DNA of 64,000 nucleotides from Gautieria morchelliformis (Eukaryota > Basidiomycota > Agaricomycetes > Gomphales > Gomphaceae): the NCBI GenBank assembly GCA_015179125.1, contig WHVA01000309.1, positions 1 to 64,000 of the forward strand, read 5' to 3'. Numbering within the stretch: position 1 is the first letter of the stretch; each line of letters begins with the position of its first letter. The notes beneath the pieces are model-generated. The model was given only the letters and a program-made list of their open reading frames with translations. It ran no database searches and was not told the DNA's origin. Below are positions 6,492-59,135 of the stretch, in pieces. A program made the position numbers and the translations under genes.

Positions 6492-9400
6492 TCATTCAGC
6501 CCCTCTGCATTGCATCCATGAAGTCCCATGCTCAAACTGGTTGAGATCAAGCTTTGTGAGTCCCTTTCCAATGACAACAGTATTCATGGGCCACCACAAA
6601 CCTGACTGAGACCAGGGTGGTACCCAGAATAAAAGTTCTTGAAGGCGAGTTGAGTAACCAGCCATTTTCGAGCCGTGAGTCATGTCGAAAAGGCCCTGCA
6701 GCTGTGCAAAGGACATTAGCGGATTTTGCATGTTCACACAAAGCAAGGTCACAGCTACTGACTAGTCTGACCTGCGAATGGTGCTGAAATGAGCTCTCCG
6801 GGGTCTGCATTCCACACACGGATCGTGTTGTCACCCGAGCCGGAGACGATGCGCTTACCGTCCTGCGAGAACGCCACGGACATGACGCTGGTGTGGCCTT
6901 TGAATGGTGCTGAAATGAGGGCCCCGGTGTCTGCATTCCACACGCGGATCGTCTTGTCACTCGACCCGGAGACGATGCGCTTGCCGTCGTGCGAGAACGC
7001 CACCGACCAGACGTAGTCGGTGTGGCCTTCGAATGGTGCTGCAATGAGCTCCCCGGTGTCTGCCTTCCACACACGGATCGTCTTGTCATCAGACCCGGAG
7101 ACGATGCGCTTGCCATCCTGCGAAAACGCTACCGACATGACGGGGCCGGTGTGGCCTTCGAATGGTGCTGCAATGAGCTCCCCAGTGTCTGCATTCCACA
7201 AACGGATCGTCTTGTCATCAGACCCGGAGACGATGCGCTTGCCGTCCTGCGAGAACGCCACCGACCTGACCGAGGCGGTGTGGCCTTCGAATGGTGCTGA
7301 AATCAGCTCCCCGGTGTCTGCATTCCAAACACGGATCGCGTTGTCATCAGACCCGGAGACGATGCGCTTGCCGTCGTGCGAGAACGCCACCGACCAGACG
7401 TAGACGGTGCGGCCTTCGAATGGTGTTGAAATCAGCTCCCCGGTGTCTGCATTCCACACATGGATTGTGGTAAGCAAACGCAGAGGCGATTCGCTTGCCG
7501 TCATGCGAGAACGCCATCGATAGGACGAGGCCGGTGTGGCCTTCGATTGGTCCTGAAATGAGCTCCCCGGTGTCTGCATTCCACACACAGATCATGTTGT
7601 CACCAGACCCGGAGATGATGCGCTGGTCGCCGTGCAAGAACGCCGCCCGCCCGACACCTGCGATGTGGCCTTCAAATGCTGCTGAAAGGACCTCCCTAGT
7701 GCCTGCATTCCACACACGGATGTCTGAGGACCCAGAGACGATGCGCGTGCCGTCGTGCGAGAATGCCACCGACGCGACCACGCCGGTGTGGCCTTCGAAT
7801 GGTGCTGAAATGGCCTCCCCGGTGTCTGCATTCCACACACGGATCATCGTGTCATTCGACCCGGAGACGATGCGCTTGCCGTCCTGTGAGAACGCCACGG
7901 ACACGACGCGGTCAATATGCCCTTTGAATGGTGTTGCAATGAGCTCCCCGGTGTCTGCATTCCACACACGGATCGTCTCGTCAAAAGACCCGGAGACGAT
8001 GCGCTTGCCATCCGGCGAAAACGCCACCGACGTGACGGGGCCGGTGTGGCCTTCGAATGCCGAAATGAGCTCCTCGGTGTCTGCATTCCACAGACGGATC
8101 GTCTCGTCATCAGACCCGGAGACGATGCGCTTGCCGTCGTGCGAGCACGCCACCGACCAGATGTTGTCGGTGTGGCCTTCGAATGGTGCTGAAATCAGCT
8201 CCCCGGTGTCTGCATTCCACAAATGGATCGTCTTGTCATCAGACCCGGAGACGATGCGCTTGCCGTCCTGCGAGAACGCCACCGACCTGACCGAGGCAGT
8301 GTGGCCTTCGAATGGTGCTGAAATCAGCTCCCCGGTGTCTGCATTCCACACACGAATCGTGTTGTCATAATCCTCGGTGAACCCGGAGACGATGCGCTTG
8401 CCGTCTTGCGAGAACGCCACCGAGCAGGCGCCGCCGGTGTGGCCTTCGAATGGTGCTGAAATGACCTCTCCAGTGTCTGCATCCCACACAAGGACCGTGT
8501 CCCAAGACCCAGAGAAAATGCGCTTGCCGTCATGCGAGAGCGCCACCGAGTCGACCCCATACGTGTGGCCTCCTCCCAGAACGGTTTGAATAGGTGGCCA
8601 CGTCGTCGCTTTCCCGGTCTCGATGTGGAGCAGTCGTGGAAATCGTGGAAGGTAAGTCTCGCATAGTTTTGACCTTTCAGGTGCAAACGGGAGTGCCGAC
8701 AAATAGAGATGGGGAGCACTCTGAGAGATTGCACCCCCAAATACACCTACAAAACTGTGGGTATCCATTCCGAATGCTGTAATGTCATTATCCTGAAGTT
8801 CATTAGACTCCCGTCGGAGTTCATAACAACTTGGGCACTGACCTGACTCCAGTCCATTATTGACGAGAGCGCGGCTGATGCATCGGGTACCTTCTTGATC
8901 AAACTCAAAACTTCCAGCCAGTAGAGTAGCTTAGTCTCGAAGAACTCCTTGACCTTTGCACCTAGACTCGGCGTAAATGTGGTGGCGCGAACATGGTCCG
9001 CCCAAAAACGGCAAGAGTAGGAAAGTTGTGAGGATATATACTTCTTGGTCCGTGTCGCCAAGTCGACAACGTCGTCATTACGCAGATGTGAAGTTTCAAG
9101 ATGACAAATGTTGAAACAAAGCTCATCCCTCATCACGCGCAAGGATGAGAGAGCAAGGCCGTCATGGTGCAAAGATGTGTCAATGTAGTATGGTCCACTC
9201 CGGCTGCGATCTGTCAAGAAGTCACGAAAAGAGGTGTGTAGCAGACTGATTGTGCCAGATTCTTGAGAAGGAAGGCTCAGCAGAGCACCCATAGGTCCAA
9301 CTATATCATGAACCTCAGTACCCGAGTCGTCTTCCTTGCACAATTTCTGCAGGGCAGACATCGAAAGCGGTTCCCTGGCTGCAAGCAAGCAGCCCATCAC

Positions 9401-21254: not shown

Positions 21255-21983
21255 TAGTGTTGTTTACAGTTCAGCTTGAATTGATCCATACCAGTTCAGT
21301 TCCAGTTCAGTTCATTGAGCTGAACTGGTATTTGAACCGAACCTGGAACTGGCATCCTCTCCATTCCTTAGATCGGTCTGAACCAATCATGAACCGGTTC
21401 TGAACCGGTTCAATACTATTATATATCTAAATGATTTATTTTTTAATTCTACTAATATTTGGCTAGTTTAAGATCATAATTATTTATTTTTGACATCTAA
21501 CTAACTAAATAAAAAGGGGAATGACTCCTGCAAGGGCAGGAGTCGTTGTGTGAAGTGAGCAAACAGTGCGGCCTTTTAAAGACCATGCTGTTTGCAAGTC
21601 ACGTGACCAGCGAATGTCGCTGTTTTGTTGACCATCACAGGTCACATGACTTGCAAAGATCAACAAACAGCGCGGTCTACATAAGGCCGCGCTGTTTTCT
21701 CACTCCACACAATGACTCCTGCCCTTGCAGTAGTCATTCCCCTTTTAATTTAGTTAGTTAGATGTCAAAAATAAATGAATATGACCTTAAAGTAGCCAAA
21801 TATTAGTAGAATTAAAAAATAAATCATTTAGAGTTAAACCGGTATTGAACTGGTTCAGAACTGGCTCAGGACCGGTTCATGAGCTGAACTGGCACATGAG
21901 CTGAGCTGGAGCTGGGTCATGACCCAAAACCAAGAACCGGTTTGTGAACTGAATTGAACTGAACTGAACTATAAACAACACTA
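21255..21983. mobile_element. hAT-type foldback MITE with 8-bp TSD
   Basis: A 729-bp element with terminal inverted repeats TAGTGTTGTTTACAG and, at the other end, its near complement CTATAAACAACACTA. The first bases fit the hAT TIR pattern (TAGNG). It is flanked by an exact 8-bp duplication CAATAGAC at 21247-21254 and 21984-21991. The interior is largely palindromic: an inner inverted repeat begins GGGGAATGACTCCTGC near 21518 and ends near 21744, and GGTTC/GAACC runs lie near the ends. It has no transposase. The host site is satellite sequence. Confidence 0.9.
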
Positions 21984-26917: not shown

Positions 26918-28547
26918 TGAGGGCAACTCTCCCTAGGCAGTGGACTCACGCAGTCTGGTAGAGGAAGATCCAAAGAGGAAGCTAAGGACCTCCGCTACCA
27001 GTGCGCTACTGTCAGGGGACACCCTGTTTTCCAGTTCCGACACCATACCAAGTTCCAACACCACACCAAGTTCTGACTCCATTTCAGACTCTGCTTCTGG
27101 GTCCGATTCCATCTCCGACTCCGCTTTCAGAAATGATTCCACTTCTGGGAGAACTTCCACCAGTTCTGTCCACTTTGCCAATTCCATGCCACTTTCCGAC
27201 TTCCGCTCTTGGAAAAGTGTTGGTCGTCAAGTGACTCATGTAATAGGTGGCATCAAGGGTTGATCAAGGGTCAGGGAGGTCAGGGGGATGCAGGGTTGAT
27301 GGTGAGTGCCAAGTGTTGTCCCTGGCTGCGGAGCCTAGTATAATACGGCCTCGCTGACATTGGGGGGTGTCATGACCTGTCTATTTCTCTTACCCCACTG
27401 CCTCTATGTTCCCCCTCGTCACTCCCTAGCATCTTCGCCAGAGTTCGTCGCACCCTCCGACCACTCCTCCTCTATGTCCACTCTACCTGCTGTTCCCCCC
27501 ATTATCCAAACCGCTATTCGCTGCTCGCGCATTTCGCCAGCAGACACGCCATCAAATACGATCGACACCATTTACCCAGCATGATGGTTCATCACTAACC
27601 CCATCATCTTCTTAATCCAACCCCTTTGGGTGTTCGTATGGCCAAAGTGTGTTTGCAGGACATCCCTTCCATAGGTCGTGCGGGATCAACCCAGTAGACG
27701 AAGAGTCCGTGCAGGGTAGCATGTATGCAGGTCCCAAGACATGGTTTTGGACATAAGTGCCTCCGCCACCTTTACTCTGCGTCGTTTCATGTTCGCACTC
27801 TTCCCTCACTCTATTGTATGTTTATTCCATCTACTTAGTATCATGACTGCGCACCCCTATCCAACCCTGACTCAAGACGGCCTCTTTCCTATTCACTGAT
27901 GCCTTACGAGCATTCGATATAAGTAGTTTACATTCGCATGTATATTCTCCAGTTCAATTATCATACGTTGTCCATCTTGTGCAAACTTGACCTCACTGTG
28001 ATCATCATTTTGAGCCTTCTCTTGGAGATTTCTATCTTCGACCAGAAGAGGACTTAGGCATCACTAGTGAGCTTTCATACTTCATCTTCGTTACCTTAGC
28101 CTTCGAACTATTTTCTGTGCTGACGGCGAAGGGCTCTGAAGGAGCACCTTCGCCGGCGAAGGGATTGTCGCTACTTAGACGACCCTTCCGTGACACTTGC
28201 ATGTTACATCATCAAGTGCCACGGGCTATTTTGCTACGACTGTAGATAGGGCGATCTCCACTCGGGCGGCCCGCTTATCTTGTGAACATTTATTGGTTCA
28301 CCTATTCGCCGAACAGCATAGTTATTCACACAAGTCATTCGGGAATTCGCTGTGTTCACTAATACACGATATTAACGCCTAAAAACCAACCTTGACAGGG
28401 GGTCCCTAGACTTTTCTCTTCATATTTCCCCTTGTCAGGTGAGAATCCCCTCTCTTGTATACTCTGTTCATTTATACATACTTCAGATTTCCCCTTATCA
28501 GTTGTATGGTAGTGTGATCTCCACAACCAGCTAGGGTTGCCCTTACA
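26918..28547 (-). mobile_element. LTR-C, inverted copy with nested LTR-A
   Basis: Reading the minus strand, it starts TGTAAGGGCAACCC at 28547 and ends GAGAGTTGCCCTCA at 26918. The two ends are inverted repeats of each other, as in LTRs. Without the inner LTR-A insertion it would be about 595 bp. The five bases outside the ends (GCCAG and GCTAC) do not match, so no TSD is claimed. Fossil. Confidence 0.75.
27368..28397 (+). mobile_element. LTR-A solo LTR, short form, TSD GGGGG
   Basis: Begins TGTCATGACCTG and ends AACCAACCTTGACA, about 1030 bp. GGGGG flanks both ends (27363-27367 and 28398-28402). The uninterrupted version of the same target is seen in the other LTR-C copy near 18084-18094. 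It contains a hairpin CCTTCGCCGGCGAAGG near 28149. Fossil, no internal region. Confidence 0.9.
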
Positions 28548-29198
28548 GCTACCTACATACTTTGCACCCCTGATTGAAGTCAGGGACGCCTGCTCCACTC
28601 CTGACACACAATTACACCCATCCTGTGTATAAAGGTGCTGTGGAGAGCGGAACAGGTAAAGTATAAAAAGAAACATATGAAACATTGGCAAGGCATTCCC
28701 TGCTAGTGTTTTAGAGCATATATCGATTTCCCCATAATCTAGGGTCAGTTAGCAAATGTAAGGGAGAAAGAGGTAAAGGAACCCGCAAGGAACACTCCCT
28801 CACTGCAAGAGCATTCGATGGGTCAAAGTAATCGGTTTCAGAAAGGCCGTAGAACCTGGACGGTAGCTGTATAGAAGGAAGATTATAATCACAAAGACAG
28901 CTTGCCTGATGAGTGCAGAATTAGGCCTGGTTTGTCAATTTGTAGTGGTTGGATTACGCTGGGTGCGGTCTGCTTTCCTCCCATTCCACGAAATAGTTCC
29001 TCAAACCGGGGCGTGGGAAGGATCTCGACGTTGTGGCCATCTCTCGCAAGAAGATCAAGAGATTCCCAAGACAAACGTTGCATTGCTGGGTCAGGGCTGG
29101 GTCAGAGCTGACGAAGAGCTGGAAGACACCCATCTTGGAAACCAGATGTGTGATGGCTGGGGGTGAATTTTGCGTAGATATTGGGAACACCGCGCATC

Positions 29199-29548
29199 TG
29201 TGAGGGAAACACTAATGACAAAGCCACAACCTAAAGATACTCAAGGAGATAGTGGCCGATACAAGGACAATAACCAACTGTGTAGTGGGTATCCTCAGAG
29301 ATCAAGCTGAGGAAACGCCACCACACTGGCTACAGTCTTATAGCACTGGCAAGGTTTACATAATAGGGGAGGCAGAAACTTGTAGAAGGTTGTGGAAACT
29401 CGTGGAAGATGATAGAAACTCGTAGAAGGTGACAGAAACTGATGGAAGGTGGCAGAAACTGATGGAAGGTGACGGAAACTGGCTCAAGGTGATGGAAACT
29501 CATGGAAGGAAATAGAAACTTGTGGAAGGAAGCACATGAACCCTGACA
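29199..29548 (-). mobile_element. 350-bp solo LTR with minisatellite, TSD GCATC
   Basis: Ends TGTGAGGGAAACAC and TGAACCCTGACA (plus strand), flanked by GCATC at 29194-29198 and 29549-29553. The other reductase copy has the same gene without this insert (GGGATGCACGGTGTTCCC, near 58560). The interior holds about eight units of a 19-bp repeat of the type GAAACTCGTGGAAGGTGAT (29390-29535). Fossil. Strand is arbitrary because both orientations give TG...CA. Confidence 0.85.
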
Positions 29549-30119
29549 GCATCCCAGACTCATGATGCCTATAATCAGGCAGGAATAGCTTATTGTGTCT
29601 GTAGCGTCCATCATATCAATGAGTGGCACACCCTACCCAATATCATACTGAGGGCTCGGCACCGTACTCGTATGAGCCGTATATACGGCTGCCGTATTAC
29701 GGACCTGTACCCGTACCGAAGTTCAGTTAGCCAATTCTGACCATATACAGTTACAGCGGGTATGACCACCATATGAGGCAGTACGACATACGGCCGTAGT
29801 GTTTTCCTGGGCCCGGCTTAGGCTGCGACAAAGCCGGAGCCGAGCCCTTACAGGCTGACCTGAGCCGGGCCGTAGCCGTCTCCAGGCCGTCCCAAAAAGC
29901 CCGGCTCAGGATTTGACAAGCCTGGGCCAAGCTGTGAAGCCGCGGCTCTTGAGTGCCTAGATGGTATGGGTGAAGCCACCCTAGGCAGCTCGACAGCACC
30001 CAGCCAGGCACAGCGTGCTGGCACCATGCGTGGGAAACTTAGATAAGGCGCTTAAAGTTCAACTGAGGGACGAAAAGGGTGTTTTTTCCATGTTTAAAAG
30101 GTATGTCTTTACACAGGGC

Positions 30120-33100
30120 GAATTCCGCTCCGGCCCACCGGCTTAGTCATCGCACCAACAGTCTTGTTGCACGTAATCTTTGCTCTACCCCCGCTCTTTT
30201 ATCTCTCACTTTAACTTAGGGTGCGCTTCACCCTCCGCTGTTACTGATCTGCGTTCCGCTGAGCGATGTTTCACTAGCAGGCCTGAGTCCCGCTTTGGCA
30301 TAGCTGAGCCCGCGTCATGGGGTTCATCATCATGTCTCAGCAGGGGGCTCACTCAAGCCTTTATCTGTTTTCGCACCAGCGCGCCTTCCCTCGCTTGCTT
30401 GCTTTGCACCATTACTTTCGCACAGGTACTTGGTCGCTGCTCACATGCTCCGCACACACTGACTTCACACAGCTTAGCTCGTTCCGTCGTTCTCCGTCAT
30501 TTTCATATCCCCAGGAGCATCTTTCGATTCATGGCTGATAATGGACGATCCACCATATCACACGAAAACTCCCCTAACGTGGGACTCAGTTATTCAGCGC
30601 AGGAAGACAATGTCGACATGCAGCCCATCACTGCTGCCGCTGCTGTGCAATGCCTCCGCACTGTTGACCGTCGATGCACTGGAGAGATCGACACCGCCGA
30701 TGCTACCATCCAATTCCACCGAATACTCCCCGACGACGAGCGGGGCAACGCAGCACTCAGGCGCTACATCGAAATGTGCACTGAGCTTGATGTCGAGCGA
30801 GCCACCGCCGCCGTTTGCGGTGGAGCACCAAGCAGTGGTGAACCCACTTCCAGTGTCCAACCTTTTGCCAACCACGGAACCCAACTCACGGGCGTCGAGC
30901 GAGCGACTACCACTGTTCGAGGTGGAGCACCACTCAGCGGAGAACCCATGTCCAGCATCCGCCCGTCGGTCAACCATAGAGCTCGACACGCGAGTCACTC
31001 CGAAGCCCAAGCCGGAACATGCAGGGAAAGGGAACTCGTGGAGAACACCTTGGAAGAAGGGGACTCAGAGTCAGACTCCGACAGTGTCATCTCGATTAGA
31101 AAACTTAAGAGAAGACATTCGGACTCTGACGCATCAGATTTGACTGCGTGAAGCAAGAAACGACCTAACAAAGCTAAGTTCTCTTGGCATCAGCGGCAGT
31201 GTGATCCCTTCCACGCCAGTGCCGACCCGGCCAAAACACTCTCCCTTCAAGCGAACCATCTCTGCGACCTCAAAGCAGCCAGGAATGACCTCATCTCCCA
31301 GATTGACTGTCCCAACTTCCCTGACAGCCTATGGCTCGACGTACTTGCCAATCACTTCATCAACCTCGATTGCATCTTCTCCAGGCATTACAGCCTCGAA
31401 TCTGAGCAAAAGGTTACAGAGTCTATCGGCAACGTCGACATCACCCTCCTTGCAGGAGGAGGGTCTCGAGCTCCTTCCAAATCCATTGAATCTCACGGAG
31501 ACTGGTCAATCACCTTCGCTGCCGCCAAACGAGCCATCCTGTACGTCTACCCCCACAGAACTGAAGAACTCGTGGAGTACGAACAATATATTATCGGACT
31601 CTTTGCGTCCCTCCGACATACAACTTTGCACCAAAGAGTCATCAACCTGGACAAAGAGATCCGAGTACGGGTCACCAAAGATAACCACCTCTCCCTCATC
31701 TCCTTTGGAAAATTTGACGATCTCTCAGCCCGACACCTCATTGGAGAGAGCTTCCCAATCGCAAGGGAATTCTGTACACCCCGACCTCTTTTTGGCACAG
31801 CAGCCCCGATTTGCCAATGTTTCAAATGTTTCAATGCCGGTCGATGCACTGGCGATTCCTGCAAGTACAGACACATCTGCGCCACCTGCTCTGGTAAGCA
31901 CCCGATCTGCAACTGCGCCAACCGGAGGAGGATCGAACCTTCCAAGTCAGAATGACTCCCTGCGCTGGGAGTGTCCCAAATGGGCCCAAGGTTTCCTATG
32001 GACTGAGCACGCGCTGTCCCACTCACCCTCAGCAGACTCCACAGAATTCGCCGACCCTTTCCCAACAGTCCCCGACAGCGTGCGCCGCGACACTGCCGCA
32101 GCTCAAACAATAGCCACCAATCTGACTTTATTCCCGATAGTCACTCCAATCAATGTTGACCGTTTCGAATCACTTCTCTCGTCCCATCCAAACTGACCTC
32201 TCATCCACTCTGTTTGCAGGAGTCTTCATGAAGGAGTGTGGCCATATGCTGTCTTAGACGAAGCTGCCCCAGAAACATTCGATTTCTCTGACCGCAACAT
32301 TTCCGCAGAAGGCCTAGCTTTCTCTGGGAGCAGCGGGATATCGAAGTAGCTTCCGGTCGCTACTCTCCTGCATTTGGCTCTGACATTCTGCCTGGCATGT
32401 ACAGCTCGCCTCTTGGCGTCGTTCCCAAGCCTCATTCAGACAAATTCCATCTGATTAACGATCTCAGTGCCAGTCCCCATGCTCTGAACTCCTGGATTGC
32501 ACGCGAGGACTCACGAGTTCGTTTTGATAATTTACAAGATTTTGGTGTCATTCTCCGCAACCTCCACAAACAGTACAAGCGCGCACCTGAGTGGCCCTTC
32601 AAGGACGATGTCTTGGGAGCCTACCAGCGCTGGCCCATCCACCCATTCTGGCAACTCAAGAAAATCATTACCATTGACGGTCTGCGCCACGTCAATCATT
32701 GCATGCAGTTCGGAACGCGCAGCGCTGCCCGTATCTGGTGCACCTTCATGGGGCTTGTTATCTGGATCGCTATTCACGTCAAAAATATTTCTGACCTGCT
32801 CCATTATATGGATGATGCCTGGTCTTGTGACATGGACTCCGTGTTAGTCCTTTACAAACCCTAAGCTACGCGCTATCCTGCTAAACAAGTTCGGCTCCTC
32901 CTCCTTTGGGATGAGATCGTGCTACCTAATGAGGAGCCCAAACAGTCCTTTGGGAAAACTCTTCGCATCATCGGGCTTGATGTAGACCCGTGCGCCCTCT
33001 CCATCACCTTTCCCTCAGATAGTAAGTGCGACTTGGTCTCAGCCATTCGAGCCTTTGTCGACCCAAGCGTTTCACGCTGTCGCACTCTGCTTCAATGGCA

Positions 33101-34360
33101 GTGTCTCCTCGGGTGGATCAACTGGTCTCTCAATGTCTTCCCTTTGCTGCGCCCCGCTCTGCAATCCTCTTATGCCAAGCTCAAAGGCAAAACCATCGCC
33201 TGAGCTTCCCTTTACTTAAACCAAGCCGTTATTGGCGACCTCACTGTTACGATACGATCCTTCATAAGGTTGACCGAGCTCAGGAGCGGAACCTGAGGTA
33301 AGGTCCGAGGTTACGGGGTGAGGTTTTGATAGGGAAGTCAGAGAGGGACTAGGCTTCAGCTTATGTGCTGCGCCGACCCTACGCACGAGTCCCAACTTCG
33401 GAGGCAAATGAATAAGAGGCGAGGTTTGGCTTAAGAGGCGAGGCTTAGAAACTAACTAGGGATCAAAATATAAGATAGTTGATTTTCAGACTGAGGAGTA
33501 GGGATGCATACAAGGGGGTTTATATACAAGCGAGGGTACGTGTCAGGGGCAAGCATATTAGGGGAGGTCAGGGCGAGGTCAGGGGGGGGCGAGGTCAGGG
33601 CAAGGTAATATACGAATGATGCGTGATGGAGCGGAATCACTAACTAAGAGGAAAAGGGCATGGGATCAAGGTTGGATATGAGCTCTAGCTCGGGCTCAGG
33701 CTCAGGCGCAGGATAAGCATCATAAGTACTCGGGCATGAGTATCACAAGGCTCGGGCTCGGAAGAAAGGTTATACCGGTAAGTAACCGGCCAAAGGCCGG
33801 GTTCTTACACTCACCTGGCTTGCCGATACGATCACTGCTTCTGATGGCCTCTATCTTGTCAATTCCCTTGTATGGGGATGCACAGACGCCAACCTCATCA
33901 TCTATTGCGACGCCTCGCTTGAAGGCATGGGTTTTTGCATAGCTGAGCCTGCGTCATGGGGTTCGTCATCGTGTCTCAGCAGGGGGCTCACTCAAGCCTT
34001 TATCTGTTTTCACGCCAGTGCACCTTCCCTCGCTTGCTTGCTTTGCACCATTACCTTTGCACAGGTACTTGGTCGCCGCTCGCATGCTCCATGCACACTG
34101 ACTTCACACAGCTTAGCTCGTTCCGTCGTTCTCAGTCATTTTCATCTCCCCACCCCCCCCTCTCTTCGTTCGCATCCCTGTGCGGCACGAATGCTTTTTC
34201 CCATAGGGTTTTTTAACGCCTCGTGTCGTCATCAGGTACCCCCTCGCATCCCTGTATTTTACTTCCTTTTGCTCTTCTCTTTTCTTCGATTACTTGTATT
34301 TACACATCGTACGTGCGTTGATAAAGTTTTTCCTGCGCGGCAGCCTCGCTGGCGCCGACC
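30120..34360 (+). mobile_element. RT retroelement fossil (DIRS-like lineage suspected)
   Basis: Parts in order: a leader/direct repeat (30296-30510, repeated at 33935-34150), a Gag-like open region (30532-31151), a second region ending in a cysteine-histidine knuckle (about 31820-31920, CFKCFNAGRC and CSGKHPICNC), an RT domain (32397-33203, with LINDLSASPHALNSWI and the YMDD box) and the start of RNase H (around 33815-33930, IIYCDASLEG). No tyrosine recombinase or integrase was recognised, so the order is uncertain. The copy is broken in several places and also holds a solo LTR. Confidence 0.65.
33245..33809 (+). mobile_element. 565-bp solo LTR, TSD CTCAC
   Basis: Begins TGTTACGATACGATCC and ends GGGTTCTTACA, flanked by CTCAC at 33240-33244 and 33810-33814. 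The flanks belong to the RNase H region of the surrounding retroelement, on either side of the insert. The interior is GAGGTCAGGG-rich. Fossil. Confidence 0.85.
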
Positions 34361-36501
34361 TCCCTTTACCGCCTTGCTCTAAGCCCTCTGCGCCGCTCAA
34401 GGAATTCGCACCCTGCGGCCATGCTCCAGCGAGCCGGGGCCAAAGTCGAGCCGAGCCGGAGCCGGGCCTGAGCCGTAAAAGCCCGGCCTGGGTTTTGTGA
34501 AGCCCAAGCCGTCTCAGGTCGAGCCGTGACCGGGGCTTTTGAGCCCAAGCCGGGCCGGGAAAACACTATATGGCCGTATGTACGCAGTGTACGGGTGATG
34601 CAGTTATTTAAGGTAACTATCCTTCAAAAATTGCCTATTATCCATAAGTACCCCCGTACACTAAGTCCGTGGTACCCAATGCTTCCAACCACACCCTTTG
34701 CCGTCTACCGCGCGCACCTCCCGCCATTCCCCTCCATGCCCCCCGGCCCCGGCGCCCGCGCACCTGCTGCCGCACCCTCTGCATGCTCGCGTTCGCATCC
34801 CTAGCCTGACCACCTTCCCGCTGCTCCTTGAGTACATCTGCACGTGCTGCATGGACATGCTCCTCGTGGAGCTCCTCCCCATGGGCGCGCGCGGCGCAGA
34901 GGAGGCAGGCGTGGACACTCTGTTGGCGTGAGCGGGGATGGTGTGTGGCATGATTACAAAGAGGGTTGGTAGCGAAAATCTCACATGTGGTCATGTCATC
35001 ACTCCAAATACTAAGGTGGCTTCTAAATGGGAGCGAGATATAATATTTTTGAAGGTGTACACAGGAATGATTACCTGCAAATACATTTCAACCAAAATGA
35101 CGATATTATTATTGGATTACAAGTGAGGACAGCGGAGCCCTTGCCAGGCAATCGCGAGATCTATCTTGTTATCCATGACCTGTTTCACGTAACTCCATGG
35201 TTTCCGGGATTGTTTGGCATACATGCTGATACCACTGTTGTAATACATGAGTTGGTCATCGCCCTTGATAAATCACCTGTAGAGGTCTATGACATTTGTA
35301 TTCTTTTGAGATGTCAGACCCAGTATCGTGGGTTGCAAGGAAATGGCCCACGAATGATTGGTCAAAGTTGGTTGGATGTGCTGTCAATGCACACCACAAG
35401 GTTTCGTCCTTTCTTCTTACTCGTGAGAGCAGTTAACGAACTTTGAACGGGGAAGATTGAGTACGGGGTCAAGGGTATGCCAGCGTCAGAAGCATCGGCC
35501 ACACCCTGGGGCAAACATAAGCTTCTTCGCCCTATGATAGGTGAGCCCCTTCCCACATATTTCCCTGGCAAGTGTCCACTAGGTCTGTAAATACACCTAG
35601 TACCTTGGACATATCCCGTATTTCCATACGACGGCCGTATCCGTACCGTCGGGGTTCCAGCAGCCCAACATACGGTACGGATGAGGCCGTAATGTCGCCG
35701 TACAATGCACGGCCGTACACGTATACGGTACGGCGCCGAGCCCTAATCATACTGCACTATCAGACCTGCGGCGGCGAGGATTCCAAACGTAGGCCCAAGA
35801 TCTTTAGTCTGTTTCTGAGATATGTACTGGTCTTTGCAGCGGGAATAGTGGAATTCGACGATGCGGGCCGCATTACGGATTGCTTGTACGCCCTCAGGGT
35901 AATACACGGTGCTAATTTGCCTTGGAGCTTCAGCGAAGACGAAGATAGGATGATTCGGACTATTCTTTGCCTGTGCCTCGTATATCTCTGGGATCGTAAG
36001 TGACCCGTCAAGAGGAGGCGGAGTGAAAGTTGTGGAATAAACGCCTTGTGGTGTTAGAGTTGCATCTTGGAAGGGGCGTAAGCTACAACCTGGGGCCCCA
36101 GACCCGTAAACTCTGTATTATGTGGATAAATAAACCCACTACTGAAACCGGACTGCTAACTTCCCACTGTGCATCCGAAAGCGGTGATAAGGAATTGAAT
36201 AGATGACAAACAAAAGCAAACAGAGAACTTTCACCATCATACTTACTGTTGATAGGTGTCTTAGGTAGGCGATGTATGTGCATCGCCATCTCATTAAGAA
36301 GCACGAATTGTCGGAACTGCATTCTCTCGAAGAGAGCCAAGTGATTACGCCTCGTTCGCTGCTGAAAGCCTAAAACGACTCTGCCATGGCGTTCCACTGT
36401 TTCAAGCCGAGTGTGAATACTGGGGAATAATTGCTCTTCCTGTAAAAGATATTTCAATCCCCATTAATAATCTTTTGTTATAGTTACTGTAATCGTTAAA
36501 T

Positions 36502-37224
36502 TAGGGCTGATCACAGTAGAGGATTTGGCTAGGATTTGATGAGGATTTGACGGAGGATTTCGATTTTTTTAGAACACCCGACAATGCCCCGAAATCGCGA
36601 TTTAACTGTGATTAGCCCGATTGGAAACTGGATTTGAGTGGATTTGAGAACGCTGGTGCCGGACACGGCAGGATGGCGCTCTCGCCGGTCTGTCAGCGGA
36701 AGGTAGGTTCTGCGTTATAATGTATCTCTAAAAAATAACATATATGAAAGCATTAATTTACCTTTAGGTGTCCTCTTAAAATAACAAATAACATAGATCA
36801 AGAGAAACTCAAAATTATATAAAAATATAGAAGAGAAACACTGAAGAATAAAAAAAAGAGATGGAACTATGTATTTTTTAGAGTTTTTACTGAATTGACC
36901 AGATTCAAAGGCTTTCACAGGTGTCATAACTGGTTGGCGGCATGGTCTTGGACCAGGCCACTAGATTGTAGCGGCGGTATGGAGTCACTTTACTTCAGTT
37001 TCCGGGTTACTTTCTGCAGGCACAAAGGCCCGGGGAGATCCCGAGGGACTAGTTTAGGGCCCGCGACGGCGCCGGCCGAAATCCAAATCCAAATCCACGC
37101 ACAAATCCCAAATCACCTCCTGGAGGTGATTTGAGGATTTGGATGGATTTGCCCTCCAAATCCATTTCTCAAATCCCCATCAAATCCCCTCCAAATCCTC
37201 TACTGTGATCAGCACTATTCTTGT
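36502..37224. mobile_element. hAT-like MITE with GGATTTG subterminal repeats
   Basis: Left end TAGGGCTGATCACAGTAGAG; right end, reverse-complemented, TAGTGCTGATCACAGTAGAG. Pairing extends about 50 bp through GGATTTGG and GGATTTGATG. GGATTTG/CAAATCC repeats fill both ends. The bases outside do not form an 8-bp duplication, so an old or rearranged insertion is likely. No transposase was seen. Confidence 0.7.
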
Positions 37225-38151
37225 ATCGCCAGAACACTCACGAACCATTTTGGGACTGAGCTTAGAGCTCATGTGCTAGGCTCAAATTAACGCCAAGCCA
37301 GCCTGTTTTGACCGTCGGGAGATAGACAGCTGAAGATCCGCCGGACATGTAATCCTAATATAAAAAATTAATAACCTATAGACAGATGAAGTCACGTTTC
37401 TCATAATGAAGGGTACAACGCGTGCCTGGCCTGTGCCACCGTTGCTACTTACATAGTAGCACGTCGCACGTATGAACGAAATCTCGGCAGAGGTGTCGGG
37501 TTTCTTACGATTGCTCAGTTCACCCCTTCCACGTGCCCTTGACGAGCAAGGGAATCAAGGGGCCTTGAAACTTGACAAGCACTGCATATGCCTCGTGCAG
37601 CGCAACTTTGAGCTTGCACCTGAGAACCGGCAGTGGACGATAAAACATCATCATATACCAAACCTATTGAGGTGCATCCATCCGTCACCTGTTGGCGACG
37701 TCAATACCCCACATCTGCTTCGGCCCATAGTTTCCAATCTCGCGGACTCCACGAGGCTGGATTCTCATCGATCGTGTCAGAATGCGCTGGCGATAATCAA
37801 CTGAGATCAATACTCTTTTTAATAACTAAGTGGCGCCGATTCGATGCGCGACTTGTACGTTGTTCTGAGCTCAGAGTCCAGACACGTAACTGATGTTTTT
37901 GATACAGTGAAATGTCCAGTTTTCTCAGTCGTTCGCCTTTGGCTTATAGGTCATCTATGACAGTAGCGCGCGTTGCATAGCCCCTCGTAGAGTCCGATGG
38001 TATGGACATGTGTGGCGTAAGTCTGTCAGAGTTCCAGTTGGTGATGTGTTCTCTCCTCGGATCATTGCACCACCTGTCAGTAGTGGCACAGACCGCGAGT
38101 GCTTAAAGGAATACATCCTTTGACACCCTTAACACACACTCGCACCAAATC
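37225..38151. other. No gene recognised; upstream of 7-TM gene
   Basis: A 110-codon plus frame (37472-37804) is open but unfamiliar. No TIR or repeat found. The last 150 bp before 38152 should hold the promoter of the membrane-protein gene. Confidence 0.35.
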
Positions 38152-39577
38152 ATGGCTGGCATTGCTCTCGACAAAGCAGAAATAATTGCGATATTTCTGG
38201 AAACTTTGCTCTACGGTGAGAACTCCATCCGTCAACTGGTGGATTATTTTGAACAGCCACCATCGACCTTTCAGGCATTTCTTTAACTCTTTTCTGTATC
38301 ACGTTATGGGTTCTGGTGAACAAACCGGCTGAGACCAAAATACGTAGTCTCATGTTGGCGATCGCTATCAGCTTGTTCGTTCTGGCCACTGCGGTGAGCT
38401 CTTTCACTATACTTATGAGAAAGTCAGTCCAATTCGAGTCAAACTAGCATATTATACTTGACTTCATCAGAATTTTAGAAGCGTTCATTTTCTTGCGCGA
38501 TTCAATACCAGGTGGTCCAATCGGTATGTCGTACTTAGCCTTCATCGACTGGTCATACATCGATGGTCACATACTTATGTTTTGTTTAAAAGGATACTAT
38601 GGGAATGTCTCCAATCCTCTTCATATCGCGAAGACTGCAGTTTATACTACCCAAACATTGATAGGTGATTCCCTGGTGGTGCGTTGGATCTATTAACCAC
38701 GCTCCCCTGAGATGTCAACGTTCGGCAATGCTGTTTCCTACAGACCTGGAGATGTTACGCAGTTTACCGGGGAAACAAGTACGTTATCATATATCCAGTA
38801 ACGAGTGCCGCTGTGTGTGCTGGTAAGTTTTCTACTTGCAGACACTGTCAGCTCTGAAATTTAAACGTATGTGTGTATGTGTTCTAGCTACTGGCTATTA
38901 CATCACCTGGAACCTGACCAATGCGACTCCTGGTTCAACAATATTTCAGGCCGGTGGAGCTTGGATAACGGCCTTCTTCGTTCTTACCATGTCCACGAAT
39001 GTTTACTGCACGAGCAAGTCGCATATCCAGTGACGCTGCAACGTCACTATTTCTGACCATTCGCCTAGGCCTGATTGTGTACCGAATTTGGACCTCTAAT
39101 CGATCTGTGGCCTCCTACCATCAGAGTAGTCTCATACCAGTAATCTTAGCGCTGGTCGAGAGTGCCGGATTGTATTCTTCTACACTTCTCGCGCTGCTCA
39201 TCGCATATCTTGCGAATTCCAACGGGCAATACCCTGGTCTGGACACTGTGATGCCAGTCATAGTAAGTCGTGCTTCCGAAACTTATCAGCCTTGGGAACT
39301 GACCTTCGACGACTGAATCCAGAGCATAGTATTTAGCTTGATTATCCTACAGATCAGCTTTGGCAGCTCTGGCGTTAAAGGCAGCACCGGAAAGTATTCT
39401 ACCAGGGAGCATGCGAGCACGGCCCGCCATGGATTTTCCACCACAGTCCCAAGCTACCCTTTACAAGCCATTTCGGTCGAAATATCCCGGGTTACGAATT
39501 CAGACGATACAAATGTGCAGAAATCCTCAAAGGATCAGAAGAAATCCATACCGGGGCAAATGTGGGAACAAGCTTGA
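38152..39577 (+). CDS. Fungal 7-TM integral membrane protein, function unknown
   Basis: Member of a large basidiomycete family of seven-helix membrane proteins of unknown function. It starts MAGIALDKAEIIAIFLETLL. Exons joining in frame: 38152-38215, 38275-38393, 38448-38523, 38593-38678, 38744-38822, 38888 onward, and 39323-39577. They give helices such as ISLTLFCITLWVLVNKPAET, IRSLMLAIAISLFVLATA, ILEAFIFLRDSIPGGPIG, TQTLIGDSLV, ATGYYITWNLTNATPGSTIF, VILALVESAGLYSSTLLALL and SIVFSLIILQISFG, with a cytosolic Ser/Thr-rich tail. Introns are 53-73 nt, all GT-AG. Near 39010 the frame shifts between TNVYCT and the next helix (TSLFLTIRLGLIVYRIW) with no plausible intron, so this allele has a small indel there, or an error. 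Flanked by hAT MITEs on both sides. Confidence 0.8.
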
Positions 39578-40048
39578 TGATTGCATCTTAAATTTTGTAT
39601 ATTCTCTGGTCAATGTCGCACATGATGCTACAGTTACCCTGTAAGGTACCTTTTTACATAACATACACCGCTGCATGGATGTAAGCACCACTGTCTCTAA
39701 ACAGGCCCCCTAACTCCTGCACAGAACTTGTTCAAGACTGAAAAAAACTCAATTCTTTGACACACCATATCTCTTCGACGCCCTTTGTATTAATGTAAAC
39801 GCACATTTGCATGCGTCAGCGAGAGCAGAGTAATATGGCAGCCATAACATCTGCATTGGTATGTTTATATTATGATTCAAATGTGAAAACATCACAGGAA
39901 TGATATTCTCATACTGAACAAGCAGTTAGGAGAAAAAGACCGGTAGCATAATCCCTACTAGAGCTGCGTTTGGTGAACATTGCGGTATGCGGGACTCTAG
40001 ATGAGAGATTCACGGTGACACAGTATGATGTTGCGGATCAGGGATGTT
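39578..40048. other. No gene recognised
   Basis: 3' flank of the membrane-protein gene. No frame, repeat or element end seen before the MITE target duplication at 40049. Confidence 0.45.
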
Positions 40049-40056
40049 AGTATTAG

Positions 40057-40592
40057 TAGGGCTGCACACCGTGCTGTACAATCACGGCTGTACGGTGCCG
40101 TGTTACGGCCACGGCACCCGTACTGTCAAGGGTCTGGGTGCGCTGCTGACGGCACGGTATACGGTACGGGTTGACGCCGTATGATACCGTAAAAATACGG
40201 CCGTGTACGGCGTATACGGCATGCATTCGGAAAACCCCGAAAACCTTGTAGCCGAGCCCAAAAATACATCGGCCGACGGGCGCTACCGCGGGTAGGCAGG
40301 CCATTTACATTCTGCCGCGCGCGCACGCACCGTAGCGAGCGGCCGGGTCAATATTTTAGTTTTGCCGCCGGTCATGTGCAGTAAGGAAGCCGGTAAGTGA
40401 TCTAAGTTTAGGCCGAGCTATAATAGATCAGCCCTATGATCCATCAACCGTAATACGGATGGTACGGTACCAGTACCGTACCGTCAGAGGGGGTGAGGTG
40501 TCGATCATATGGACAGTATATGGTCTGCCGTATCCATCAACTTGCCGTACATTATATGGCCGTAGCCGTAATACGGATGGTGTGCAGCCCTA
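40057..40592. mobile_element. hAT-type MITE, TSD AGTATTAG
   Basis: A 536-bp element with ends TAGGGCTGCACACCGTGC and, complemented at the right, TAGGGCTGCACACCATCC. Exact 8-bp duplication AGTATTAG at 40049-40056 and 40593-40600. The interior is dominated by ACGGTACGG/CCGTACCGT-type short palindromes like those at the ends of the element 29650-35745, suggesting one family. No coding region. Confidence 0.9.
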
Positions 40593-51022: not shown

Positions 51023-52295
51023 TGTCATGACACGTTTATTTCTCATATTCAGGTGCTCTGTCTTACCATTTGTCACTCCAACTCAGTGTTCGTTCCGATC
51101 GCCATTGTCATGTTCGGTAACCAATTCTCGCTGTTCGCAACAATGACCCTGGTTATGCCATCAACAAGCGATCGACGTCCTCGGACTAACTTAGCAGTCA
51201 TTGTTGGGCCTATCACCTCCTCTGCTCGACCCTCTTCCGATGGTGTTCTGACAATCAGATTGTCATGACCTATGTATTTCCTGCACCTTGGTACCCCCAT
51301 TCCCTCGTTCGCTACCCCTCCTCCGTGTTCGCTCGGCTTCACCTCTCCCTTCGGCCACGCCTCCCCTATGTCCTCTCCGTTCACCCTTCGCCGCATTTCG
51401 CCGAACCGCTATTCGCTGCTCGCACATTTCACCAACAAGGCACGCCATCAAACACGATCGATACCATTTACCCGGCGTAATGATTCATCACTAACCCCAT
51501 CATCTTCTTAAATCCAACCCCTTTGGGTTTTCGTATGGCCAAAGTATGTTCGCAGAGCGTTCCTTCCGTAGGTCGTGTGGGATCGACCCAGTGGACGAAG
51601 AGTCCATGCAGGGTGACATGTATGCGGGTCCCAAGACATGGTTTCGTACATAACCACCTTCACCACCTTTACTCTCCATTGTTTCATGTTCGCACTCCTC
51701 CCTCACTCTATTGTATGTTTATTCCATCTCCTTAGTATCATGACTGCGCACCCCTATCCAACCCTGACTCATGACGGCCTCTTTCCTATTGGCTGATACC
51801 GTACGAGCATTAGATATAAGTAGTTTACAATCACATGTATATTCCCCAGTTCAATTATCATACGTCGTCCATCTTGTGCAAACTTGACCTCGCTGTGATC
51901 ATCGTCTTGAGCCTCTCCTTGAAGATTTCTATCTTCGACCAGCCAAGGACTTAGGCATCACTGGTGAGTTCTCATACTTCATCTTCATTACCTTAGCCTT
52001 CAAATTACTTTCTGTGCTGTTGGCGAAGGGCTCCGAAGGAGCACCTTCGCCAGCGAAGGGACCGTCGAAACTTAGACAGCCCTTCCACGATATCTTGCAC
52101 GTTACGTCGTCAAGTGCTGCGAGATATTTCACTACGACTGTAGATAGGGCGAGCCCTGTTCGGGCAACCCCCTTGTTTCGTGAACATTCATCGGTTCACT
52201 TATTCGCCGAATGGCATACTTATTCGCACAAGTTATTCAGGCATTCGTTGTGTTCACTAATACACGATATTAACGCCTAAAAACCAATCTTGACA
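51023..52295 (+). mobile_element. LTR-A solo LTR, long form, TSD GTGTC
   Basis: Begins TGTCATGACACG and ends AACCAATCTTGACA, 1273 bp. GTGTC flanks at 51018-51022 and 52296-52300. A second TGTCATGACC start-like sequence occurs 238 bp inside (51261), and the rest from there matches the short form at 27368-28397. Fossil, no internal region. Confidence 0.9.
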
Positions 52296-52329
52296 GTGTC
52301 GTCCAAAGGTTCAAAAGGCTGACAAATAG

Positions 52330-52351
52330 GTCACGTGATGTATCACGTGAC
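52330..52351. promoter_or_regulatory. Palindrome with two CACGTG boxes
   Basis: Arms GTCACGTGAT and ATCACGTGAC are separated by GT, making a perfect 10-bp-arm inverted repeat with an E-box-type CACGTG core in each arm. It lies in the 103 bp between two LTR-A copies in opposite orientation. A regulatory role is a guess. Confidence 0.5.
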
Positions 52352-52398
52352 AGCCAAAAGAGCCCAGTGCATTTGATTGCTCTCTGTACCTGGTTGTT

Positions 52399-52802
52399 GT
52401 CAATATTGGTTTTTAGGTGTTAATATCGTATATTAGTGAACACAGTGAATGCCCGAATAGCTTGTGCAAAGAAGTGTGCTGTTTGGAAAATAAGGTGAAC
52501 CAATAAATGTTCAGAAGATAAGAGGGCTTCCCAAATGGAGCTCGCCCTATCTACAGTCATAGCGAAGTAGCCCGTAACACTTGATCATGTAACGTGCAAG
52601 GTGTCACAGCAAGGTTGTTTAAGTAGCAACAATCCTTTTGCTGGCGAAGGTGCTCCTTTGGAGCCCTTCACTGACAGCACTGATAGTAGTACAAAGGCTA
52701 AGGTAACAAAGGTGAACTATGAAAACTCACCAGTGGTGCTTAAGTCTCCCTCTGGTTGAAGATAGGAATCTACAGGAGAGGGCTCAAGACGATGGTCACA
52801 GC
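52399..52802 (-). mobile_element. LTR-A fragment, inverted
   Basis: Begins TGTCAATATTGGTTTTTAGG, the complement of the LTR-A 3' end, and continues to about 52802 where the match stops and LINE sequence starts. Only the 3' third of the LTR remains; there is no TSD. Fossil. Confidence 0.75.
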
Positions 52803-58049: not shown

Positions 58050-59135
58050 AACCCGGTGAGTGGGAAGTACTTAGCAGTCCAGTTTCAGTAGTGGGTTTAT
58101 TTACACACACATTGCGAAGTTTACGGGTCTGGGGCCCCAGGGTGTAGCCTACGCCCCTTCCAGGATACAATTCTTAACACCACAAGGTGTTGATTCCACA
58201 ACTTTCACTCCGCCTCCTCTTGATGGGTCACTTACGATCCCAGAGATATATGAAGCACAGGTAAAGAATAGTCCAAATCATCCTTTCTTCGTCTTCGCCG
58301 AATATCCAAGGAAAGTTAGGACCGTGTATTACCCTGAGGGCGTACAAGCAATCCGTAATGCGGCGCGCATTGTCGAATCCCACTATTCGTGCTGCAAAGA
58401 CCAGTACATATCTGAGAAACAGAGTAACAATCTTTGACCTATGTTTGGAATCCTCGCCACCACAGGTATGATAGTGGAGTATGATATTGGGTAGGGTGTA
58501 CCAATGGATGCTTACAGACACAATAAGCTATTCCTGCCTGATTGCAGGCATCATGAGCCTGGGATGCACGGTGTTCCCAATCTCTACACGAAATTCACCC
58601 CTGGCCATCGCACATCTGGTTTCCAAGATGGGTGTCTTCCAGCTCCTCGTCAGCCCTGAACCAGCCCTGACCCAGCAATGAAACATTTCTCTCGAGAATC
58701 TCTTGATCTTCTTACAAAACATGGCCACAATGTCGAGATCCATCCAACTCCCCTGTTTGAGGAACTATTTCGCGGAACGGGAGGAAAGCAGACCGCACCC
58801 GTCGCAATCCAGCCACTACAAATTGACAGACAAGGCCTAAGTCCACCCTCATCAGGAAAGCTGTCTTTGTGATTATAATCTTCCTTCTATACAGCTACCG
58901 TCCAGGTTCTACGGCCTTTCTGAAACCGATTACTTTGACCCATCGAATGCTCTAGCAGTGAGGGAGTGTTCCTTGCGAGTTCCTTTACCTCTTTCTCCCT
59001 TACATTTGCTAACTGACCCTAGATTATGAGGAAATAGATATATGCTCGAAAACACTAGCAGGGCATGCCTTGCCGATGTTTCATACATTTCCTTTTTTAC
59101 TTTACCCGTTCCACCCTCCACGGCACCTTTATACC
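58050..59135 (+). pseudogene. NRPS-like adenylate-forming reductase 5' fragment, copy 2
   Basis: Uninterrupted partner of the split copy at 28622-36175. It includes TPPPLDGS-type sequence near 58200 (LDGSLTIPEIYEAQ), FFVFAEYPRKVRTVYYPEGV, then after an intron ISYSCLIAGIMSLGC, VFPISTRNSPLAIAHLVSKM and GVFQLLVSPEPALTQQ. These are the N-terminal adenylation segments of mushroom NRPS-like reductases. Similarity to copy 1 covers the upstream flank (from about 58050) and continues downstream of the coding part to GGCACCTTTATA at about 59135. There Gypsy sequence begins. Stops are present and the protein ends within the adenylation domain. Confidence 0.75.

Follow-up and report, generated by a model that had tools for sequence, protein, structure and literature searches.

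We describe a nested set of transposable elements (TEs) in the first 64 000 nucleotides of contig WHVA01000309.1 of the basidiomycete Gautieria morchelliformis (assembly GCA_015179125.1); this whole stretch, C348:1-64000 in our numbering, is called the window below. A duplicated gene copy, which we read as belonging to the nonribosomal peptide synthetase (NRPS)-like reductase type, is split by a non-autonomous hAT element; the latter contains a miniature inverted-repeat transposable element (MITE), likely of the hAT superfamily, the MITE contains a retroelement with an apparent Ngaro-like layout, and the retroelement contains a solo long terminal repeat (LTR). We hold it highly probable that this arrangement arose by successive insertions into a decaying duplicated gene copy. 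Every junction was read in the sequence, and uninterrupted relatives of every insertion site were found in the same genome. The comparison covered the whole assembly (122 Mb, 1113 contigs); ‘C’ numbers denote contigs of this genome and ‘L’ numbers loci examined, and relatives were judged among the copies examined.

The nesting and each edge named in a first-pass annotation of the window, made from the sequence alone, were borne out by junction reading and by intact relatives. That annotation had described the stack as readable from target site duplications (TSDs). This holds for the outer element, the inner element and the LTRs; the retroelement layer, for which no TSD had been claimed, was read instead from 12 of 12 intact MITEs. 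On the assumption that terminal inverted repeats (TIRs) or TG..CA ends define the element ends in advance, the probability of a chance match between flanks is 1.6e-5 for 8/8 positions, 3.9e-4 for at least 7/8 and 1e-3 for 5/5.

The interrupted gene copy

The window holds two copies of the gene, an interrupted one (copy 1) and a short one that is uninterrupted (copy 2). BLASTN of positions 28400-36400 against the window, which served to compare the two, gave three collinear pieces on the reverse complement of copy 2: 28627-29198 matched 59134-58563 (90.9% identity), 29549-29649 matched 58567-58478 (82.4%) and 35746-36168 matched 58485-58059 (89.0%). Where neighboring pieces meet, exactly 5 bases of copy 2 (58563-58567) and 8 bases (58478-58485) are matched twice; the doubly matched bases represent the TSDs GCATC and ATCATACT. 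The gap edges fell where they had been predicted, at 29642-29649/35746-35753 and at 29194-29198/29549-29553, and no divergence of the two copies ahead of these edges, which had been named as an observation that would speak against the split, was seen. With both inserts and the second TSD copies removed, the joined copies aligned over 1072 columns with 90.3% identity.

Both gene-level sites, GCATC and ATCATACT, were uninterrupted in all three other gene copies that cover them (copy 2, L069 and L070), each of which has a single site with no added bases at both insert positions; the LTR-like insert at the GCATC site is likewise absent from all three. L069 (contig C491) and L070 (C715) align with each other over 4.5 kb with the same gene stretch intact. 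A fourth, diverged gene copy (L071, in C547) matched piecewise, with both insertion sites outside its matches. Collinear blocks common to the copy 1 locus and L069 extend from 28611 to 40057; copy 1 is therefore part of a longer paralogous block and not a bare fragment.

The locus had been called a reductase gene fragment. A gene copy it is; we would refine the name to the adenylation end of an NRPS-like reductase gene, lying in the block 28611-40057. In a profile search reading frames of L069 matched NAD_binding_4 above the cut-off (E-values 1.3e-6 and 6e-9), matches to AMP-binding were weak and below the cut-off (0.0097 in L070, 0.04 in L069), and an NCBIfam thioester-reductase match was weak and far below it. 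The adenylation piece of L070 gave no significant match in PDB (FadD13, an acyl-CoA ligase, E-value 0.052). We read the gene, from these profile matches, as one of the NRPS-like reductase type, of which the window copies would hold the adenylation end only, the reductase domain lying outside them. Reading frames of the gene copies are short and scattered; the copies look decayed or intron-rich.

Duplication of the gene had been placed before all insertions, as duplication of a fragment. Its precedence holds; the two window copies, however, do not derive from one simple fragment duplication. At 58059 copy 2 meets a repeat, 20 of whose 36 other matches end near the same point (query positions 406-416). 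At 59134 it meets the end of a Ty3/gypsy-type pol region, the point at which 38 of the 39 other matches scored start; this pol end matched SH3_Tf2-1 with an E-value of 1.7e-5, below the cut-off.

We also observed that the inner breakpoints of copies 1 and 2 nearly coincide (28611 and the equivalent of 28627, within ∼17 bases), with different neighbors, an LTR-like end at 28611 and the gypsy-type pol end at 59134. The upstream block 38036-40057 (2 kb) has 92.6% identity to L069; the stretches between this block and the gene have roughly 80%.

The outer hAT element

Without its inserts the outer element is 1316 bp long. None of the four full copies examined elsewhere in the genome contains the inner element; their ends read TAGGGCTCGG, and their TSDs match at 8/8 positions in three copies and at 7/8 in one. 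The 17-base end of the element had 56 exact matches in the genome (the window's own included), the reversed control none. At seven other loci this end lies 372-406 bp from a match to Dimer_Tnp_hAT (PF05699), with 0.07 such loci expected within 500 bp; at two more loci the distance is 3.4 and 3.9 kb, and in the other nine contigs compared it is ∼6 kb or more. In C188, C372 and C612 two ends face each other 4.0-4.5 kb apart with a PF05699 match between them. As its end is common to hAT-transposase loci, the outer element is a non-autonomous hAT derivative.

The inner MITE

Without its insert the inner element is 450 bp long. Twelve copies were examined out of 22 others listed; all 12 have TAGTGTTTTCC and GGAAAACACTA as their left and right ends, lack the retroelement and are continuous across its site. 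Their TSDs match at 8/8 positions in ten copies, at 6/8 in one and at 4/8 in one. Among the other ten listed copies, three (C330, C326 and C448) look continuous from their coordinates.

Both DNA elements had been labeled hAT-like. The label stands for the outer one, given its TIR near hAT transposase matches at seven loci; the inner one is likely to belong to the hAT superfamily, as judged by its TSD and ends.

The Ngaro-like retroelement

Uninterrupted MITEs read GGGTGTTTTT-CACCCTG with small changes, and the window retroelement sits between the T and the C with no TSD. The absence of a TSD follows from comparing the window site with the 12 intact MITEs; flanks of the copies in C1026, L048, L051 and L065 also differ, as judged by eye. 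Ends like TCC(A/G)TGTTTAAAA and GGAATTCG recur elsewhere in the genome with small changes.

Relatives of the element carry split direct repeats, A1 on the left and B1-A2-B2 on the right. The B1-A2 junction was found in six loci, with ends conserved apart from small changes; it lies directly downstream of a recombinase-type frame, an order seen in L041, L044 and L050. This frame matched PF00589 with E-values of 9e-5 (L044) and 0.0058 (L050), all below the curated cut-off; no PF00589 match was obtained for L045 or for the broken frame of L041. The motif HSLRS(G/R)GAT..GMG(R/H/C)WSS..VYIR is present in five of the nine loci examined, and a sixth (L045) has a changed residue. We read the relatives as encoding a putative tyrosine recombinase. 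Searched against PDB, the recombinase frame of L041 returned weak kinase matches only, which were taken as chance.

Compared with relatives, in which an RNase-H-like end directly precedes the recombinase frame, the window element has an internal deletion at ∼33931, where the sequence jumps from a stretch that we take, from its motif, to be RNase-H-like into A2; the window copy has thus lost the B1-A2 junction along with the recombinase region. Upstream lies a reading frame with one stop and the motif LHYMDDAW, which we presume, from YMDD and its context, to encode a reverse transcriptase (RT).

The layout of the element would fit the Ngaro/PAT group, and internal repeats downstream of the recombinase would fit Ngaro. 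Published work describes Ngaro elements, reported from fungi, as having split direct repeats and internal repeats downstream of the recombinase (PMC4157794), and DIRS1-like elements as making no TSD (PMC3266345); the latter study reports that no well-conserved DIRS1-like copies were found in 16 basidiomycetes (PMC3266345). The likeness to Ngaro, of the DIRS order, consists in the split direct repeats of the relatives, their internal repeats 3′ of the recombinase frame and the absence of a TSD at the window site; the difference is that the window copy has neither the recombinase region nor the B1-A2 junction and is placed by layout. What had been described as an RT retroelement is then a retroelement indeed, more precisely a Ngaro-like one without the recombinase region.

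The solo LTR

A solo LTR inside the retroelement, flanked by CTCAC, had been proposed, and it was confirmed: the TSD matches at 5/5 positions, and no interruption of the site was seen in any of the five retroelement relatives examined. This LTR belongs to a very common family, of which the best 40 of 1106 candidates were scored.

Gene-derived cargo of the outer hAT

The outer element carries a piece in common with a multicopy gene family matching PF09994 (DUF2235), and the full outer copies in C197, C217, C625 and C447 carry the DUF2235-gene piece as well. The exact 10-base hAT end was absent from the examined stretch of 13 gene-family loci (L015, L016, L018, L019, L021-L023, L025, L028-L030, L033 and L034, with L018 and L025 overlapping), and likewise from L036, which is cut by a contig end. 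The loci of the gene family were similar over at least 2 kb in all six pairs compared. PF09994 was matched with an E-value of ∼1e-14 in all three loci tested (L015, L022 and L033); the matches lie downstream of the shared stretch, within which no significant Pfam match was obtained (0.17 in L015, none for the window piece). We therefore conclude that the outer hAT captured and multiplied part of a gene, a case of transduplication.

Translation of the window piece reads GRNLVVCIDSTSNQ, followed by QKNTNVIDLYR in a different frame. The frame change would correspond to an intron retained from genomic DNA, which suggests that the piece was captured from genomic DNA with the intron kept. An 80-bp block absent from the outer element of the window was considered as a lost intron; this was rejected, since the block has no GT..AG and the same gap is present in one relative, L014. 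We read the gap as a deletion common to a sublineage; it takes out coding-type sequence of the captured gene.

On balance we lean, by a narrow margin of belief, towards describing the outer element as a fungal Pack-type hAT, one that would have taken up an intron-containing genomic piece of a DUF2235 gene, raised its copy number to five or more and delivered it, in the same orientation, into the 5′ region of a second gene; the nest would then also document how hAT elements shuffle genes in this fungus. A related case is reported from Dothideomycete fungi, where histone H3 was transduplicated by hAT elements through capture of a spliced transcript (PMC6710886). In both cases a hAT element with an 8-bp TSD carries and amplifies a piece of a host gene; there the source was a spliced transcript, whereas here it appears to be genomic, given the intron-like frame shift, and the family is DUF2235. 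Pack-TYPE transposons have been described for plants (PMC8903248); the likeness is a non-autonomous TIR element with a piece of a coding gene in several copies, and the difference that the description concerns plants and that one family was examined here. The DUF2235 piece adds a case of fungal hAT transduplication whose source was apparently genomic DNA rather than a transcript.

Order of events and alternative explanations

An NRPS-like reductase gene copy, already duplicated and apparently decaying, would have been the landing ground. A non-autonomous hAT carrying the DUF2235 piece would have inserted with an 8-bp TSD, and the 450-bp hAT-like MITE would then have inserted into it, again with an 8-bp TSD; the Ngaro-like retroelement would have entered the MITE by means of a tyrosine recombinase, with no target duplication. 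Finally, an LTR retrotransposon would have entered the retroelement with a 5-bp TSD, LTR-LTR recombination removing its internal part and leaving the solo LTR. The LTR-like insertion at GCATC is a separate event, with no readable order relative to the stack. It had been annotated as a solo LTR; its TSD and its edges within the gene piece stand, and we call it LTR-like.

The nesting gives the order outer hAT, MITE, Ngaro-like element and LTR only if every element was unloaded on arrival, a condition that the first-pass annotation, which proposed the same order, had not discussed. We infer a single arrival of each layer, as no pre-loaded element was seen among the relatives examined, and the intact relatives support the order. 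A composite arrival, with two or more layers moving in together and the nesting then carrying no order at this locus, is a thing that nested TSDs alone cannot exclude; moreover, the outer hAT carries other cargo, the DUF2235 piece, and the MITE copies in C438 and C793 are interrupted by ∼0.5 kb near the retroelement site. Still, among the copies examined or scored, which are some of those in the genome, the inner MITE is missing from all four full outer elements, the 12 MITEs contain no retroelement and are flanked by sequences different from TACGGCCG, and the five retroelement relatives have no LTR; we consider composite arrival improbable. Hardly any weight goes to the idea that the inserts had also been present in copy 2, L069 and L070 and were precisely excised there: hAT elements do excise, but LTRs are not known to have an excision pathway, and the three copies keep a single site with no added bases for both inserts and show no footprint. 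An assembly join of unrelated repeats might be suspected in a repeat-rich assembly of 1113 contigs; as four pairs of junctions are bounded by TSDs and the gene sequence is collinear on either side, we give this possibility next to no credence either.

Several observations weigh against the reading of successive insertions or against the identity of its layers. The TSD of the inner element in the window carries one mismatch (TACGGCCG and TATGGCCG). Of the 22 other MITE copies 12 were read in sequence, and of the remaining ten five could not be judged. The copies in C438 (59586-60489) and C793 (257489-258404) stop 16 bases before the retroelement site, the right part following ∼0.5 kb on; this interval is far below the size of the retroelement, yet it may be a remnant, which slightly lowers our confidence. 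A clean 5-bp TSD was seen by eye in two of five solo-LTR relatives viewed. The RT frame had no match in Pfam, NCBIfam or PDB, and its AlphaFold single-sequence fold was unusable (pLDDT, the predicted local distance difference test score, of 37). No hAT transposase match was tied to the ends of the inner element by exact pattern among the PF05699 matches listed.

The last point bears on an alternative for the inner element, namely membership of a different superfamily that also makes 8-bp TSDs, such as KDZ/Zisupton or P. An 8-bp TSD and TAGTG ends are not exclusive to hAT, and across 24 exact inner-end matches (the window's own included) the closest PF05699 match among those listed lies 4.0 kb from an inner-type end (in C475), outside a complete MITE copy. 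On the other hand, the inner ends match the hAT end pattern YARNG; a non-hAT origin is to us the less likely choice, though one to be taken seriously.

Nested insertion is a term used in several fungal TE papers. Ordering by interruption, TSDs and solo LTRs is the same in nests of TE-rich fungal and plant genomes, with no difference in kind; here each layer was additionally checked against uninterrupted copies. Such nests are common and represent ordinary transposon biology, leaving knowledge of how the elements work unchanged; the present one provides a clean worked example, in which intact copies elsewhere in this genome support each layer.

Neighboring insertions and other features of the window

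The annotated four layers stand; the nest is larger, including insert Y with insert Z inside it, a further insert upstream of copy 1 and the captured gene piece (Table 1).

Table 1. Positions of the gene copies, the nested elements and neighboring inserts in the window
Feature	Position	Strand	Details
Copy 1, gene-internal end	28611..29198	-	Matches copy 2 and L069 4361-4937; left edge adjoins LTR-like repeat ending at 28610
Copy 1, middle piece	29549..29649	-	Matches copy 2; ends in TSD ATCATACT (29642-29649)
Copy 1, gene 5′ piece (to ∼36168) and upstream	35746..36499	-	Begins with TSD ATCATACT; matches copy 2, L069/L070
Copy 2 gene piece	58059..59134	+	No insert at either site; repeat on left, Ty3/gypsy-type pol end on right
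LTR-like insert in gene piece	29199..29548	.	Ends TGTGAGGG..CCCTGACA; TSD GCATC at 29194-29198 and 29549-29553, 5/5
Outer non-autonomous hAT	29650..35745	.	TIR GAGGGCTCGG../..CCGAGCCCTA; TSD ATCATACT (29642-29649/35746-35753), 8/8
Inner MITE (likely hAT-like)	29797..34568	.	TIR TAGTGTTTTCC../..GGAAAACACTA; TSD TACGGCCG (29789-29796)/TATGGCCG (34569-34576), 7/8
Ngaro-like tyrosine-recombinase retroelement (putative)	30087..34408	+	Left end TCCATG, right end ..GGAATTCG; no TSD
RT-like reading frame	32292..33203	+	One stop (32862-32864); motif LHYMDDAW
Solo LTR in retroelement	33245..33809	.	Ends TGTTACG..TTACA; TSD CTCAC at 33240-33244 and 33810-33814, 5/5
Piece common with PF09994 (DUF2235) gene family, inside outer hAT	35107..35577	-	471 bp
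LTR-like insert Y, in repeat left of copy 1 (repeat end 28610 adjoins copy 1)	27010..28547	.	TSD GCTAC
LTR-like insert Z, inside Y	27368..28397	.	TSD GGGGG

The upstream insert, at 36502-37217, is MITE-like, has inverted ends TAGGGCTGATCACAGTAGAGGATTTGG/TAGTGCTGATCACAGTAGAGGATTTGG and is absent from L069, L070 and L072; a TSD was looked for at this insert and was not recognizable. At a distance from the nest, a tandem repeat with steps of roughly 130 bp occupies 6762-8571 within long minus-strand frames; the repeats are presumably of WD40 type, and a nearby frame looks to us like a NACHT nucleoside triphosphatase. Large palindromic (self-inverted) repeats are present at 51892-52802 and 21379-21879.

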